Below are positions 19,991 through 63,232 of a DNA stretch of 64,000 nt, piece by piece; positions within the stretch are counted from its first letter, which is position 1; each line of letters begins with the position of its first letter. The notes beneath the pieces are model-generated. The model saw only the letters and a program-made list of their open reading frames with translations. It was not told where the DNA came from and did not search any database. The position numbers and the translations under genes were made by a program. The DNA comes from Dictyostelium firmibasis (Eukaryota > Evosea > Eumycetozoa > Dictyosteliales > Dictyosteliaceae): contig CM069765.1 of the NCBI GenBank assembly GCA_036169595.1, positions 6,234,501-6,298,500 of the forward strand, given 5' to 3'.

Positions 19991-20032
<42 letters not shown>

Positions 20033-20131
20033 TATTGGGATTAGAATTTCTAATCACCATGTTTTTTTTTTTTGTTGTTGTTTTTTTGGAAGTCGAGCTT
20101 TTTTCCGGTTGATTATGAGGTGTGTTATTTA
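19156..20131. other. Gene-free AT-rich stretch
   Basis: No convincing exon is seen. The region consists of long T runs with short GC-richer islands. The string CCTACGGGCA occurs at about 19984 and again at about 20340, bracketing the two short SINE-like copies, which suggests repeat debris. Confidence 0.45.
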
Positions 20132-20221
20132 TGACCACGTTACTTCGTGGTCTGACCTAAGGCTCGAACCAAGGCCACGGAGACTGTGTGATTCAGCGCA
20201 GAACCACTACGTATAGCCTCC
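20132..20221 (-). mobile_element. tRNA-derived SINE-like repeat, head-only copy (S7)
   Basis: Read on the minus strand it has the tRNA-like head (GTAGTGGTTCTGCGCTGAAT...), a B-box-like GGTTCGAGCCT and the hairpin CCACGAAGTAACGTGG. The loop is AAGTAA in place of the AATTAA of the copies near tRNAs. The AT-rich middle, 3' palindrome block and poly-A tail are missing. It looks like an older or separate subfamily. Confidence 0.6.
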
Positions 20222-20240
20222 AATAATGAGGGTTTAATTA

Positions 20241-20336
20241 TGACCACGTTACTTCGTGGTATGACCAAGACTCGATCCCAAGGTCTTGACCACGGAGGCT
20301 TGTGATTCAGCGTGGAACCACTACGCTAAGCCCCCC
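20241..20336 (-). mobile_element. tRNA-derived SINE-like repeat, head-only copy (S8)
   Basis: On the minus strand it starts at GGGGGGCTTAGC, carries an exact A-box match (TAGCGTAGTGG against TRGCNNAGYNGG) and a weak B box (GGATCGAGTCT), and ends with the hairpin CCACGAAGTAACGTGG. It shares the AAGTAA loop with S7, 20 bp away in the same orientation, so the pair may be a duplication. Confidence 0.62.
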
Positions 20337-20382
20337 AGACCTACGGGCAGAGCTATTTTTTTTTTTATGCTAACGAGTGGTG

Positions 20383-20930
20383 GTGCCACTTTCAAATGTT
20401 AACACCCGTATCAAATATCATTATTTGTAATTAACATCAAAAATCACCAACCACACGACACATTATTTCTCATTTGTGTACAGATTACAAACAACTATCA
20501 CTTTTTATTTCTAAAAAAAATAAAAAAAAAAATAATAATAAATAATTAAAAAATATCGACCAAATGAAAAAAAACGCAGTTTTTTTTCATTTTCGTTGTG
20601 CCACTTTCAAATGTTAACACCCGTATCAAATATCATTATTTGTAATTAACATCAAAAATCACCAACCACACGACACATTATTTCTCATTTGTGTACAGAT
20701 TACAAACAACTATCACTTTTTATTTCTAAAAAAAATAAAAAAAAAAATAATAATAAATAATTAAAAAATATCGACCAAATGAAAAAAAACGCAGTTTTTT
20801 TTCATTTTCGTTGTGCCACTTTCAAATGTTAACACCCGTATCAAATATCATTATTTGTAATTAACATCAAAAATCACCAACCACACGACACATTATTTCT
20901 CATTTGTGTACAGATTACAAACAACTATCA
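20383..20930. repeat. 215-bp tandem repeat, about 2.5 copies
   Basis: Units begin with GTGCCACTTTCAAATG at 20383, 20598 and 20813, exactly 215 bp apart. As far as I can read, the first two units are identical, and the third matches for about 117 bp before diverging. The unit is non-coding in all frames. It has a GC-richer half (TTAACACCCGTATC, ACCAACCACACGACAC) and an A/T-rich half. Such identity in AT-rich DNA means a recent duplication or active homogenisation. Confidence 0.92.
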
Positions 20931-21005
20931 ACAATTCATTTTTTCAAATTCATTTTGATACTCTTTTTTTTTTAGAATAAAGGAAATTTTGCAAAAAAAA
21001 TCCGG

Positions 21006-21039
<34 letters not shown>

Positions 21040-21139
21040 AAAAAAAAAATGAAAAATAATTAAAAAAAAATAATCAAATTAAAATATCAAACTAAAAATA
21101 TCAAAAAAAAATATCAACCCCAAAGTATCAATTCAAAAA

Positions 21140-21250
21140 GGTGCTGGTTTGAATGTTAACACAAGTATCAAATATCACTGTTTGTAATTAACACCAAATG
21201 TTACCAGCCAGATAAAGACACATTATTTCCCCTTTGTGCCACACACTCAA
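21140..21250. repeat. Diverged relative of the 215-bp repeat
   Basis: This stretch retains GTTAACACAAGTATC, a TTTGTAATTAACACC block and GACACATTATTTC in the same order as the 215-bp unit, but with many differences. The tandem repeat therefore belongs to a dispersed, older family. Confidence 0.6.
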
Positions 21251-21445
21251 AACATTAATTTTATACATTAATTGAGCCTGTAAAAAAAAAAAAAAACAAT
21301 AAACACGAGTTCTATTCTCGAGGAGAGACAGCCTAAAAAACTGTGATATTCAATTTAAAAAAAAACAAAAAAAAAAAAAAAAAATAACGAGTGGTATGGG
21401 GTTCGAACTCGGAACTGATCATTTACGAACCCTGCCTAAAAATAT

Positions 21446-21527
21446 CGACATCGGCAGGGTTCGAACCTGCGCCTCCGAAGAGAATTGATTTCTAGTCAAT
21501 CGCGTTAGACCACTTCGCTACGATGTC
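21446..21527 (-). tRNA. tRNA-Ser (anticodon AGA)
   Basis: An 82-nt class II tRNA. The acceptor stem GACATCG pairs with CGATGTC, with discriminator G. The D arm is GCG/CGC. The anticodon stem ATTGA/TCAAT encloses the loop CTAGAAA (anticodon AGA). The long variable arm is CTC-TTCG-GAG, typical of serine tRNAs. The T arm GCAGG/CCTGC has loop TTCGAAC. There is no intron. It reads UCU/UCC after A34 deamination. A SINE-like cluster starts 35 bp upstream of its 5' end. Confidence 0.95.
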
Positions 21528-21561
21528 CTTTGATGATTTTGAAATTTTTTTACACATATTT

Positions 21562-21625
21562 TAATGATGGAAAAAAAAAAAAAAAAAAAAAAAAATAATG
21601 ATGGGTTAAAAAAAAAAAAAAAATT
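21562..21625 (+). repeat. Two TAATGATGG plus poly-A units before a SINE-like copy
   Basis: TAATGATGG followed by about 25 A (21562-21595), then TAATGATGGGTT and about 15 A ending in TT (21596-21625). The same TAATGAT recurs at 21626 and 21827, flanking SINE-like copy S1. The units look like extremely truncated insertions (only tails) into the same target, or tail debris. Confidence 0.6.
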
Positions 21626-21634
21626 TAATGATGG

Positions 21635-21826
21635 GTGGGGGTGGCTTAGCATAGTGGTTTCGCACAGAATAACACAGCCTCCATGGCCTTGGTTCAAGTA
21701 TTGGTCATACCACGAATTAACGTGGTCACAGAAAAAAAAAATATAGTAAATTAAAATAATTAATAAATAAAAACTAGATTCGAACACATCCAATTGGATG
21801 AGGTTATTAAAAAAAAAAAAAAAAAA
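21635..21826 (+). mobile_element. tRNA-derived SINE-like element, full copy (S1)
   Basis: In 5' to 3' order: the head GTGGGGGTGGCTTAGC; an exact A box (TAGCATAGTGG); a B-box-like GGTTCAAGTAT about 45 bp on; the hairpin CCACGAATTAACGTGG; an AT-rich middle (about 21732-21775); GATTCGAACA next to the perfect palindrome CATCCAATTGGATG; then AGGTTATT and about 18 A. It is flanked by TAATGAT on both sides (21626-21632 and 21827-21833), a 7-bp direct repeat that fits a target-site duplication. It lies upstream of tRNA-Ser with its head toward the tRNA. Confidence 0.72.
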
Positions 21827-21835
21827 TAATGATTT

Positions 21836-22008
21836 GTGGGGAGCTTGGTTTCACACTGAATAACACAGCATCCTTGGCCTTAGTTCAAGTCTTGGTCCTA
21901 CCACGAATTAACGTGGTCACAGAAAAAAAATTAAATTAAAATAAATAATAAATAAAAACATGATTCGAACACATCCAATTGGATGAGGTTATTAAAAAAA
22001 AAAAAAAA
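21836..22008 (+). mobile_element. tRNA-derived SINE-like element, older copy (S2)
   Basis: The same architecture as S1, but the A box is eroded (GGGGAGCTTGGTTTC) and the B box reads TAGTTCAAGTC. The hairpin, the CATCCAATTGGATG block and a 15-A tail are intact. It lies further from tRNA-Ser than S1 and is more diverged, as expected if new copies insert between the tRNA and old copies. Confidence 0.68.
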
Positions 22009-60946: not shown

Positions 60947-61808
60947 AAATTAGTTTAAAATTTAATTAATTTTATATATAAATAATAACATTACGAATTT
61001 ATTTATGTGTCTAATGTAGAAAAATAAAACAAATAAATAAAAATAAAAAAAACAAACAAAAAAAAAAATAAAAAAGGGCAAACATTTATCATAATACGAC
61101 TGCAAAAAAAAAAAAAAAAATATTTCAATATGTTTCAAATAGGGATTTTATTCAGTGTTTAAAAAATTATTAATTAAATTCCAGTGTAGTTTCATTTTTA
61201 TAGTTTTTTAATTATTTTAAGGTTGGGTTGGCCATCAGTTTAAAATTGTTTAAATTAATTTGGCTGGATATCAATATTTTCTATTGATTGGCTCAAAATT
61301 ACATTTTTATTGACATAGGACTTCACCGTAACCAATTTGATTGTATTTTGAACGAATTTTTATTTTATAACCTCATCCCTGATATGTTCGAATCATAATT
61401 TTTTTATAATTAGTTTAAAATATGTTATTTTATCAATTTGAGTATATTTCAATTGAAATATTTTTAAAACTTGGAACAATAGATTTGGTTTAATATTGCT
61501 ATCTTTCATCCTTCCTCCACCTATTTTCTTTTATAAAAAATTCTTGCTTTTTTTACTGTTCAGTATATACTCTTGAGTTATCCAAAGGATTGAATTTATA
61601 TTTACTGATTATTTCTAACCAATATTCTTTTGGTTTTGAATTATTAACCAAAATTTTTTTATTATTAACTTACCTGCCTCAAAACTTGAATAAATAAAAA
61701 CATAAAAAATAATACAAAGAAATCAAATAAAATTACAAAAGGAAGTCTATATTATAATTGTCATTTTTTACTAAATTTTTTTCATAGCTTAATTATTTTT
61801 TTAGATAA
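60947..61808. other. Intergenic, less homopolymeric than average
   Basis: About 860 bp with fewer homopolymers and more mixed sequence (for example 61200-61360, 61500-61690) than other gaps, but no frame looks coding. It may be old repeat DNA. ACCTCATCCCTGATATGTTCGAATCATAA (61370-61398, split here as two blocks of interest) resembles the 3' block of the SINE-like family. Confidence 0.4.
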
Positions 61809-61871
61809 TTTTTTTTTTAATAACTTCATCCAATTGGATGTGTTAGAATCATGTTTTTATTAATTTTTTTT
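61809..61871 (-). mobile_element. tRNA-derived SINE-like element, 3' fragment (S3)
   Basis: Only the tail remains: a poly-T (poly-A on the element strand), AATAAC, the CATCCAATTGGATG palindrome and GTGTTAGAATC. It is the furthest copy from tRNA-Arg in this cluster and the most truncated. Confidence 0.62.
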
Positions 61872-61873
61872 CC

Positions 61874-62046
61874 TTTTTTTTTAATAACCTCATCCAATTG
61901 GATGTGTTCGGATCATGTTTTTATTTATTAATTATTTAAATTTAAATTTTTTTCTGTGACCACGTTAATTCGTGGTATGAACAAGACTTGAACCAAGGTC
62001 ATGGAGACTGTGTTATTCAATGTGAAACCACCATGCTAATCCCCAC
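61874..62046 (-). mobile_element. tRNA-derived SINE-like element, full copy (S4)
   Basis: A complete unit on the minus strand, but with a mutated head (GTGGGGATTAGCATGGTGG) and a GGTTCAAGTCT B-box-like site. The hairpin CCACGAATTAACGTGG and the CATCCAATTGGATG 3' block are intact. It is more diverged than S5 and S6. Confidence 0.7.
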
Positions 62047-62055
62047 TTTTTTAGC

Positions 62056-62236
62056 TTTTTTTTTTTTTTTTTTAATAACCTCATCCAATTGGATGTGTTC
62101 GAATCTAGTTTTTATTTATTAATTATTTTAATTTAAATTTTTTTTTTCTGTGACCACGCTAATTCGTGGTATGACCAAGACTTGGCCATGGAGGCTGTGT
62201 TATTCTGTGTGAAACCACTATGCTAAGCCCCCCCAC
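62056..62236 (-). mobile_element. tRNA-derived SINE-like element with B-box deletion (S5)
   Basis: A complete unit except for a short internal deletion that removes the B-box region (the plus strand reads GACCAAGACTTGGCCATGG, lacking GAACCAAG). The A box TAGCATAGTGG is exact. The hairpin spacer has GCTAATT in place of GTTAATT. TTTTTTAGC precedes its tail and recurs after its head, which fits a target-site duplication. Confidence 0.7.
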
Positions 62237-62250
62237 TTTTTTAGCTAAAT

Positions 62251-62430
62251 TTTTTTTTTAATAACCTCATCCAATTGGATGTGTTCGAATCTAGTTTTTA
62301 TTTATTAATTATTTTAATTTGAATTTTTTTTTTTTCTGTGACCACGTTAATTCGTGGTATGACCAAGACTTGAACCAAGGCCATGGAGGCTGTGTTATTC
62401 TGTGTGAAACCACTATGCTAAGCCCCCAAC
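62251..62430 (-). mobile_element. tRNA-derived SINE-like element, youngest-looking copy (S6)
   Basis: A complete unit on the minus strand: head GTTGGGGGCTTAGCATAGTGG with an exact A box, GGTTCAAGTCT B-box-like site, hairpin, AT-rich middle, GATTCGAACA plus CATCCAATTGGATG, and tail. It is flanked by a 14-bp direct repeat, TTTTTTAGCTAAAT, at 62237-62250 and 62435-62448. Its head ends 49 bp before tRNA-Arg. Confidence 0.75.
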
Positions 62431-62479
62431 TATTTTTTTTAGCTAAATACTAGCTATTTTTTTTTTAAAAAATATCAAA

Positions 62480-62552
62480 GCCCGTTTAGCAAAGTTGGAA
62501 TTGCGGCAGCCTTCTAAGCTGCAGGTCGTGGGATCGAGACCCACAATGGGTG
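62480..62552 (+). tRNA. tRNA-Arg (anticodon TCT)
   Basis: A 73-nt tRNA. The acceptor GCCCGTT pairs with AATGGGT (two G-T pairs), with discriminator G. The D arm is GCAA...TTGC. The anticodon stem GCAGC/GCTGC encloses the loop CTTCTAA (anticodon TCT). The variable loop is AGGTC and the T arm GTGGG/CCCAC has loop ATCGAGA. There is no intron. It reads AGA, the main arginine codon in this genome. A SINE-like cluster lies just upstream. Confidence 0.94.
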
Positions 62553-63232
62553 TAATTTTAACGTTGTCCGTCAAAATCCGAACTTCGGAAAAATAATGTC
62601 CAACTATCGACCTTGGTTCGAATCTTGGTTTTGCCACAAAATAATAATTAATGTCAAACTCTCGACCCAGGTCCTTTGAATACAATTAAAAAAAACCTAT
62701 GGGATTGCCAACATAACCTCAACCTTTTACTAAAACCATCTTTCCTTAAACTTTAACACAAAAAAAAAAAAAAAATAAAAAAAAATAAACTATTTCTATA
62801 TAGTTAAAAAAAAAATACAAAAGATTCTATCGTTACCAAAGAGTTACTCTGAAATAAAAAGAAAAAAAAATACTTGATTGTATTGCATTCACTATTTATG
62901 AAAAAATAAAAAATTAAGGTATTTTCTTCACAGTAAACAAAAATTACAAAATATACAATAATAGATGAACATATAATTACTCCCCCCATTTTTTCCAAAG
63001 ATGTTCAAATAAAAATTAAAAAAAAGTAAAAAAATAAAATTAAAAAAAAATAAAATTTTATTTATTTGTTTTTTTTTCACAAATAAATTAATTTTGTTTA
63101 TTTTTTTTTTTATTTTATTATTTTTTTTTTAATTTTATTAATTACTTTAATTCCGTTTTTCCTAACAAATATTCATACATATTTAATTAAAAATAATAAT
63201 AAAATAATATAAAAAAAAAAAAAAAAAAAAAA
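62553..63232. other. tRNA-flanking and promoter region
   Basis: Just after tRNA-Arg (62575-62690) are tRNA-T-arm-like strings (CCTTGGTTCGAATCTTGG) and the palindrome TCCGAACTTCGGA. AATGTCNAACT plus CTCGACC/ATCGACC is repeated twice (about 62596 and 62651). These look like further tRNA-like repeat debris. The rest is homopolymeric DNA leading to the decarboxylase gene. Confidence 0.45.

Follow-up and report, generated by a model that had tools for sequence, protein, structure and literature searches.

In Dictyostelium firmibasis, a short repeat with a tRNA-like head, here termed SINE-A, tends strongly to lie about 48 bp upstream of tRNA genes and antisense to them, often carries target duplications, accumulates in ordered stacks, and shares its spot and its target words with TRE5-like elements. 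SINE-A is very probably a tRNA-headed SINE copied by the reverse transcriptase (RT) and endonuclease of the TRE5 clade, with this machinery docking about 47 bp upstream of tRNA genes. The window analysed is a stretch of 64,000 nucleotides (contig CM069765.1, positions 6,234,501 to 6,298,500), and the genome searched comprised 31,455,843 bases in 12 contigs of the D. firmibasis assembly.

Structure of SINE-A

SINE-A is about 170 nt long plus an A-tail, with tRNA-like A and B boxes at its head. Its 25-nt core, searched with up to three mismatches, gave 428 matches genome-wide, and the reversed control gave 0. In the consensus, built from 126 copies of at least 100 nt each, the A box agrees at 11 of 11 bases (position 8) and the B box at 9 of 11 (position 52), and the A-to-B spacing of 44 is the commonest value among 75 tRNAs of the fetched stretches (28 of them). 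No TTTT occurs within the consensus, and the 16 nt around the A box are identical to a tRNA-Trp gene (p 0.003). The head gave no match to the Rfam tRNA covariance model; SINE heads are often missed by this model, so the criterion was not taken as defining. Since ORF inspection found no ORF2 with APE and RT in SINE-A, the family was not filed as TRE5. With its promoter boxes, A-tail and duplication, 5' truncation and non-coding dispersed copies, SINE-A is classed, as judged from its sequence, as a tRNA-derived SINE.

SINE copies at the tRNA genes of the window

The copy S6 is the newest member of a stack upstream of tRNA-Arg, within which the target word recurs (Table 1). The 14-bp repeat bracketing S6 lies exactly where the original prediction had placed it (62237-62250 and 62435-62448), and S6 is indeed upstream of the tRNA start at 62480; its head, however, ends with a C-run at 62427 and faces the tRNA gene across 52 bp, instead of ending at 62430 across a gap of 49 bp as had been proposed. 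The extra bases at the 5' junction (62428-62434) are perhaps non-templated. The duplication rule applied to the sampled copies tolerates no more than 4 bases between the repeat and the head, so that S6, with 7, was scored at 7 nt and because of these seven junction bases is not among the 54 duplication-positive copies described below; its 14-bp repeat was established by direct reading, not by the rule. Within 61300-62700, RF00005 at E≤5 matched tRNA-Arg as its sole hit and left the SINE heads unmatched. From S4 through the repeat that follows S6, there are two ORFs of at least 40 aa, 44 aa each, one of which extends 5 bases beyond the repeat.

Table 1 Mobile elements, target words and tRNA genes at tRNA-Arg and tRNA-Ser in the window.
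Feature	Position	Strand	Details
SINE-A copy S6, tRNA-proximal member of the stack	62251-62427	-	A-tail 62251-62259, body 62260-62427
Distal target duplication of S6, TTTTTTAGCTAAAT	62237-62250	.	Direct reading
tRNA-proximal target duplication of S6, TTTTTTAGCTAAAT	62435-62448	.	Direct reading
7 extra bases, 5' junction of S6	62428-62434	.	Outside repeat and consensus head
tRNA-Arg(tct), target gene	62480-62552	+	ARAGORN; Rfam RF00005, 59.2 bits
SINE-A copy S5 including A-tail	62057-62234	-	92% to S6
Further target-word copy TTTTTTAGCT, between S4 and S5	62047-62056	.	Direct reading
SINE-A copy S4	61874-62044	-	89% to S6
SINE-A remnant, tail part only	61797-61865	-	90% over 70 nt
SINE-A remnant, tail part only	61355-61418	-	80% over 70 nt
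tRNA-Ser(aga)	21446-21527	-	ARAGORN; Rfam
SINE-A copy upstream of tRNA-Ser, 112-115 bp away	21640-21818	+	Sequence match
Second SINE-A copy upstream of tRNA-Ser	21846-22003	+	Sequence match
SINE-B copy, two related monomers, own 3' tail, 11-bp duplication	19993-20336	-	Downstream of tRNA-Ser, tRNA orientation
TRE5-like element: ~215-bp A-module repeats, TRE5-like 3' end, A-tail	20382-21384	+	
SINE-C fragment, B-box-like motif, split by TRE5-like insertion	21385-21420 (limits approximate)	-	

SINE-A is also present upstream of tRNA-Ser, where members of two further families, SINE-B and SINE-C, and a TRE5-like element built of A-modules (A-module element) lie on the other side of the gene. At E≤5, Rfam recovered two true tRNAs, and all other matches scored below the gathering scores of their families. 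Between tRNA-Ser and its SINE-A (21560-21650), two A-runs are bounded by target-like words, repeats of TAATGATGG; they resemble A-tail-only insertions, and the innermost TAATGATGG repeat ends about 44 bp from the tRNA. Similar A-run patterns, judged by eye, occur at C1:125912 and C1:7472924, where SINE-A lies 67 and 79 bp from the tRNA.

Position of SINE-A relative to tRNA genes

The census was based on 100 exact-core copies among the matches listed (of 428), chosen regardless of tRNAs and forming 80 clusters; 72 copies are on contig C1, 12 on C3, 11 on C4, 5 on C2, and 0 on C5 and C6. Sampling by exact core favours young copies, and some of the fetched surroundings extend no further than about 620 bp towards the tRNA. 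A tRNA start lies 40-60 bp from the SINE-A head, head-to-head, in 45 of the 80 clusters, against about 0.02 clusters expected by chance from the 379 tRNAs annotated in D. firmibasis (PMC11193728) and 31.46 Mb, orientation ignored. The anticipated peak near 50 bp upstream of tRNA genes is thus clear. Another 8 clusters have a tRNA within 130 bp, and 1 more has a tRNA-Arg remnant at 48 bp. Head-to-head orientation holds for every one of the 53 clusters that have a tRNA at up to 130 bp, and in 36 of the 52 having a tRNA within 90 bp the distance is 44-50 bp. Two distances of 21 and 22 bp reflect poor head alignment and become 41 and 43 bp when BLAST ends are used. In a position-only check around 54 nuclear tRNAs, found among the 63 best-scored Rfam matches of 2401 candidates, 13 of 14 copy-tRNA pairs within 1.5 kb were upstream and antisense, with core midpoints at 83-146 bp in 11 of these 13.

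In the remaining 26 clusters, the next feature on the tRNA side is another SINE-A copy (5), a head-to-head SINE (1), a TRE5-like 3' end (5), an LTR-like end (11) or unclassed (4). By these motif rules, which matched nothing when applied to the 45 positive clusters, another mobile element stands in between in 22 of the 35 clusters outside 40-60 bp. No tRNA was seen beyond the LTR-like end in most of the 11 clusters concerned (e.g. C1:52752, C1:775105 and C2:1359975); nine of these ends start with TGTRAY, 33-53 bp away. We take them to be LTRs from their look, perhaps DGLT-A-like and inserted later between SINE and tRNA. One unclassed cluster, at C1:1942416 (L065), has SINE-A in or beside an ORF of the TRE5 clade; the copy has a 12-nt duplication, no tRNA was seen nearby, and the insertion is possibly off-target.

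Sister families and SINE heads as possible insertion targets

SINE-B consists of two monomers homologous to the SINE-A head (scores 111 and 101, null ~14, p 0.001) and a tail unrelated to that of SINE-A; its 3' end has 136 matches genome-wide. For 23 of 24 SINE-B heads, drawn from stretches fetched for SINE-A or tRNAs, the nearest tRNA on either side lies behind the head in the same orientation, at 56-158 bp in 16 of the 23. Around the 54 tRNAs, 14 of 15 SINE-B tail-tRNA pairs (from 100 of the 136 tails) are likewise downstream and same-sense. A shared word of 9-16 nt stands at both ends of 9 of the 11 SINE-B copies with readable tail and flank, a count made without a shuffle control. SINE-C has 46 genome matches, including loci L050 and L036 and C1:6255894-6255918, which is 21394-21418 (-) of the window; 8 of 10 SINE-C-tRNA pairs are same-sense with the SINE 54-185 bp downstream. 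SINE-C has a motif resembling a B box, but an A box at tRNA spacing could not be convincingly made out.

TRE3 of D. discoideum is reported to insert 40-150 bp downstream of tRNA genes in the same direction (PMC5911963), and SINE-B and SINE-C lie on the TRE3 side and in the TRE3 orientation. Unlike TRE3, both are short repeats, and SINE-B showed no detected 3' similarity to the ends of the TRE3-like families F1 and F2 (p 0.89 and 0.40) or to that of the TRE5-clade family F5 (p 0.52). The SINE-B tail was also considered as the 3' end of a TRE3-like family, with matches near TRE3-like ORFs, and was rejected as such for families other than the 1146-aa one: in the fetched copies it belongs to SINE-B. 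In these copies the tail is sometimes truncated beside the A-run of another element. Such 5'-truncated tails fused to another element's A-run were seen at L043 (C1:179895), C3:2754854 and C2:137014, with the same breakpoint CCTCATAATCAAC twice, and could result from template jumping between A-tails.

Three divergent head pairs without a tRNA member and no more than 120 bp apart occur in the fetched stretches, at 44, 45 and 47 bp, the distance at which tRNA-involving head pairs also peak. The pairs are SINE-A with SINE-A, SINE-B with an A-module element, and SINE-A with an A-module element; the second is that of the window, where the TRE5-like element (20382-21384) and the SINE-B copy stand head-to-head, the 5' end of the former 45 bp upstream of the head of the latter (20336 and 20382). 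These three cases suggest that the Pol III factors of tRNA genes may also assemble on SINE heads.

The SINE-A head is by sequence a good Pol III promoter, and SINE heads carry insertions at the tRNA distance in the same three cases, as would be expected if SINE-A targeted itself, its tRNA-like head, as DNA or RNA, binding the Pol III machinery whatever enzyme inserts the element. Yet the homologous SINE-B head lands downstream in tRNA orientation (23/24 heads; 14/15 tail-tRNA pairs), which makes self-targeting very unlikely. Since the two heads are related but their sites differ, the head does not appear to set the side, and the tail or another non-head part would have to choose the partner.

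Relation to TRE5-like elements

TRE5-A of D. discoideum inserts at 47±3 bp in 59.2% of natural copies (n=98) and 80.2% of new copies (PMC5391098), in the orientation opposite to the tRNA gene (PMC5911963). SINE-A is like TRE5-A in its 47±3 bp window, opposite orientation, target duplications and oligo(A) tail, as well as in extra 5'-junction bases and tandem insertion at one site, features described for TRE5-A in the same two reports (PMC5391098, PMC5911963). Unlike TRE5-A, SINE-A is only ~170 nt long, lacks RT and APE, and has a Pol III-type head.

Several L1-type RT families are present in the D. firmibasis genome: F5 and F3 are 47% identical, and F1, F1b and F2 form another group. The F1, F1b, F2 and 1146-aa families contributed 30 ORFs; a known tRNA could be placed within 5.5 kb of 10 of these, and 10/10 are downstream of it in the same orientation. 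At least one known tRNA lies within 5.5 kb of 4 of the 11 F5 ORFs, in relations that are upstream-antisense (two), upstream-same (one) or other (three). The RT stretches of the TRE3-like families (L013-L037) are ~99% identical within families, so the L1-type machinery looks recently active.

TRE5-like elements occupy the same spot as SINE-A. At four tRNAs, an antisense element has its 5' end 46, 47, 48 or 48 bp upstream of the gene; the ends measured are those of A-module elements, which have a TRE5-like 3' end, and not of autonomous F5 copies. At the tRNA-Ala, tRNA-His and tRNA-Asp loci, thus in at least three of the four, the A-module element and the SINE-A copies behind it occupy the same target word. 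At L100 and L105, SINE-A lies between an A-module element and the tRNA with the target word shared, so SINE-A arrived later there. F5 3' ends directly adjoin SINE-A heads at L081 and L106, and at L044 one lies nearby with an LTR-like piece between. The F5 3' end at these three loci carries GGGTTCTATCCCC, which resembles a B box.

For SINE-A the comparison of 3' ends took in F5, F1, F2 and the A-module element, and for SINE-B F5, F1 and F2; the 1146-aa and 1159-aa families stand outside both. The SINE-A 3' end has no significant similarity beyond the A-tail to the TRE5-like ends of F5 and the A-module element (p 0.33 each), and its values against the TRE3-like ends of F1 and F2 (p 0.10 and 0.06) are unconvincing. 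Sharing of 3' sequence between LINE and SINE was therefore rejected for both SINE-A and SINE-B, as neither tail bears a convincing likeness to the 3' ends compared. The likeness to TRE5 3' ends that the original prediction had proposed to look for did not appear, the ends compared being the TRE5-like ones of this genome and not the TRE5-A sequence of D. discoideum. L1-type partners need no shared 3' sequence, so the missing likeness does not refute a link to TRE5; because the 3' ends are dissimilar, the link to the enzyme rests on the target site. The earlier proposal that the SINE uses the TRE5 RT and tRNA-targeted integration is thus borne out in its targeting part, by the site peak, the duplications and the shared spot; as for the enzyme, we infer that the TRE5 RT moves SINE-A, with no help from 3' likeness.

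The relation to TRE5 could also be one of descent. TRE5-A.2 and SINE-A are both non-autonomous and use the same site; TRE5-A.2 lacks ORF2, is described as derived from TRE5-A.1 and is reported to be mobilised in trans (PMC5391098 for the last two), whereas for SINE-A such mobilisation is inferred and derivation from TRE5 was undetected. If SINE-A were a deletion derivative of this type and not an independent SINE, its TRE5 site and orientation would follow, and such derivatives are present in D. discoideum (PMC5391098). A tail without significant similarity to F5 or A-module 3' ends and a tRNA-like head common to SINE-B speak against such descent, which is even less probable than self-targeting by the head.

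Insertion marks and growth of stacks

The target duplication of S6 is no isolated case, duplications being common in the family. They reach at least 8 nt in 54 of 88 testable SINE-A copies, compared with a mean of 4.2% and a maximum of 11.4% in 200 flank re-pairings; the test required a TTATTA(n) tail, and 12 of the 100 copies were left out with an unrecognised tail or too little flank. The commonest length is 12-13 nt. Among 55 tRNA-proximal copies, 8 are 5'-truncated, starting at query positions 15-46 with at least 14 head bases missing, and their junctions lie at 41-52 bp in 6 of the 8 and at 73 and 80 bp in the other two. As truncated copies mostly keep the junction distance, it is set for the most part by the target and not by the element. 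Target words vary between loci, and the tRNAs targeted cover many isotypes.

Stacks of two to four copies occur at 19 of the 55 tRNAs with a near SINE-A copy. Mean divergence increases with rank from the tRNA, being 1.8, 3.0, 4.9 and 5.9% (n 19, 19, 8 and 2), and among 29 adjacent pairs the proximal copy is less diverged in 22, more diverged in 5 and tied in 2 (p=0.0015). Adjacent copies share derived changes at 0.032 (n=29), compared with 0.081 for copies of different stacks (one-sided p 0.96). As neighbours share no extra derived changes and an age gradient is present, the stacks are best read as repeated insertions, the newest beside the tRNA. Target duplication and 5' truncation are marks of target-primed reverse transcription, and together with the gradient they point to repeated target-primed insertion at one spot. 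The duplication likely restores the target word at the same distance, hence the reuse of the spot.

Random insertion followed by selection, with copies surviving mainly beside tRNA genes in a gene-dense genome, would accord with the gene density of 70.6% given in PMC11193728, but leaves the 43-56 bp peak, the single orientation and the reuse of one target word within a locus unexplained, and is less credible again than the two preceding explanations. Least probable of all is that the stacks are tandem duplications, produced by recombination or replication slippage, and that the family spread with duplicated tRNA genes: the copies do lie head-to-tail with near-identical spacers, but neighbouring copies show no greater likeness than copies from separate stacks, 5' truncation varies within a stack, TRE5-like elements are interleaved, and target words differ by locus at tRNAs of many isotypes, the shared-change test ruling out tandem duplication as the origin of the stacks.

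Proposed mechanism and significance

In the reading that we favour, copying by TRE5-clade machinery, Pol III would transcribe SINE-A RNA from the A/B-box head, and the RT and endonuclease of a TRE5-clade L1-type retrotransposon would copy this RNA into the genome. The docking site of this machinery would lie about 47 bp upstream of Pol III promoters, both those of tRNA genes and others such as SINE heads, and docking would most likely go through TFIIIB, a role suggested by published work on TRE5-A together with the three insertions 44-47 bp upstream of SINE heads. Insertion of SINE-A would be antisense to the tRNA and would leave a target duplication and an A-tail, and the restored target at the same distance would let the next insertion hit the same spot, so that stacks would grow from the tRNA-proximal end.

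We are aware of no SINE that lands at a set position with respect to Pol III genes. The L1-dependent SINEs, Alu among them, have a Pol III head, an A-tail and no 3' sequence in common with their L1 partner, but Alu is dispersed throughout the genome, whereas SINE-A favours a single position with respect to tRNA genes. Short, internally deleted derivatives of R2 are non-autonomous with a fixed genic target, but are LINE-derived and rely on target sequence; the target words of SINE-A differ between loci, and its head is independent of a LINE.

An open-access literature search, conducted mostly at the level of titles and listings, recognised no tRNA-gene-targeted SINE, and the term SINE is absent from the main text of two papers on dictyostelid transposons (PMC5006619 and PMC5633606). 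The default RepeatMasker counts in PMC4683709 give 88 and 57 'SINEs' in D. discoideum and D. purpureum, and these counts name no family or position. D. firmibasis transposons were annotated by tblastx against D. discoideum Repbase entries (PMC11193728), an approach unlikely to reveal non-coding SINEs. SINEs and TRE5 targeting are each known; to our knowledge, a SINE with TRE5 targeting and a family pair split by its tail are new.

With their related heads, unrelated tails and opposite tRNA sides, SINE-A and SINE-B form a natural swap experiment on template choice by L1-type machinery. There is about an even chance that recruitment of either TRE5-type or TRE3-type machinery depends on the 3' tail alone, which would thereby determine whether insertion is upstream-antisense or downstream-sense, while the heads, as Pol III promoters, create a new docking site about 45 bp upstream at each insertion and enlarge the target pool for SINEs and TREs. 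In addition, the stacks tend to be age-ordered, so that past insertions are recorded beside a tRNA gene, and the insertions 44-47 bp upstream of SINE heads suggest that Pol III factor occupancy of SINEs may be read from the genome alone. A TRE5 retrotransposition assay already exists in this group of amoebae, and these ideas would be testable there.
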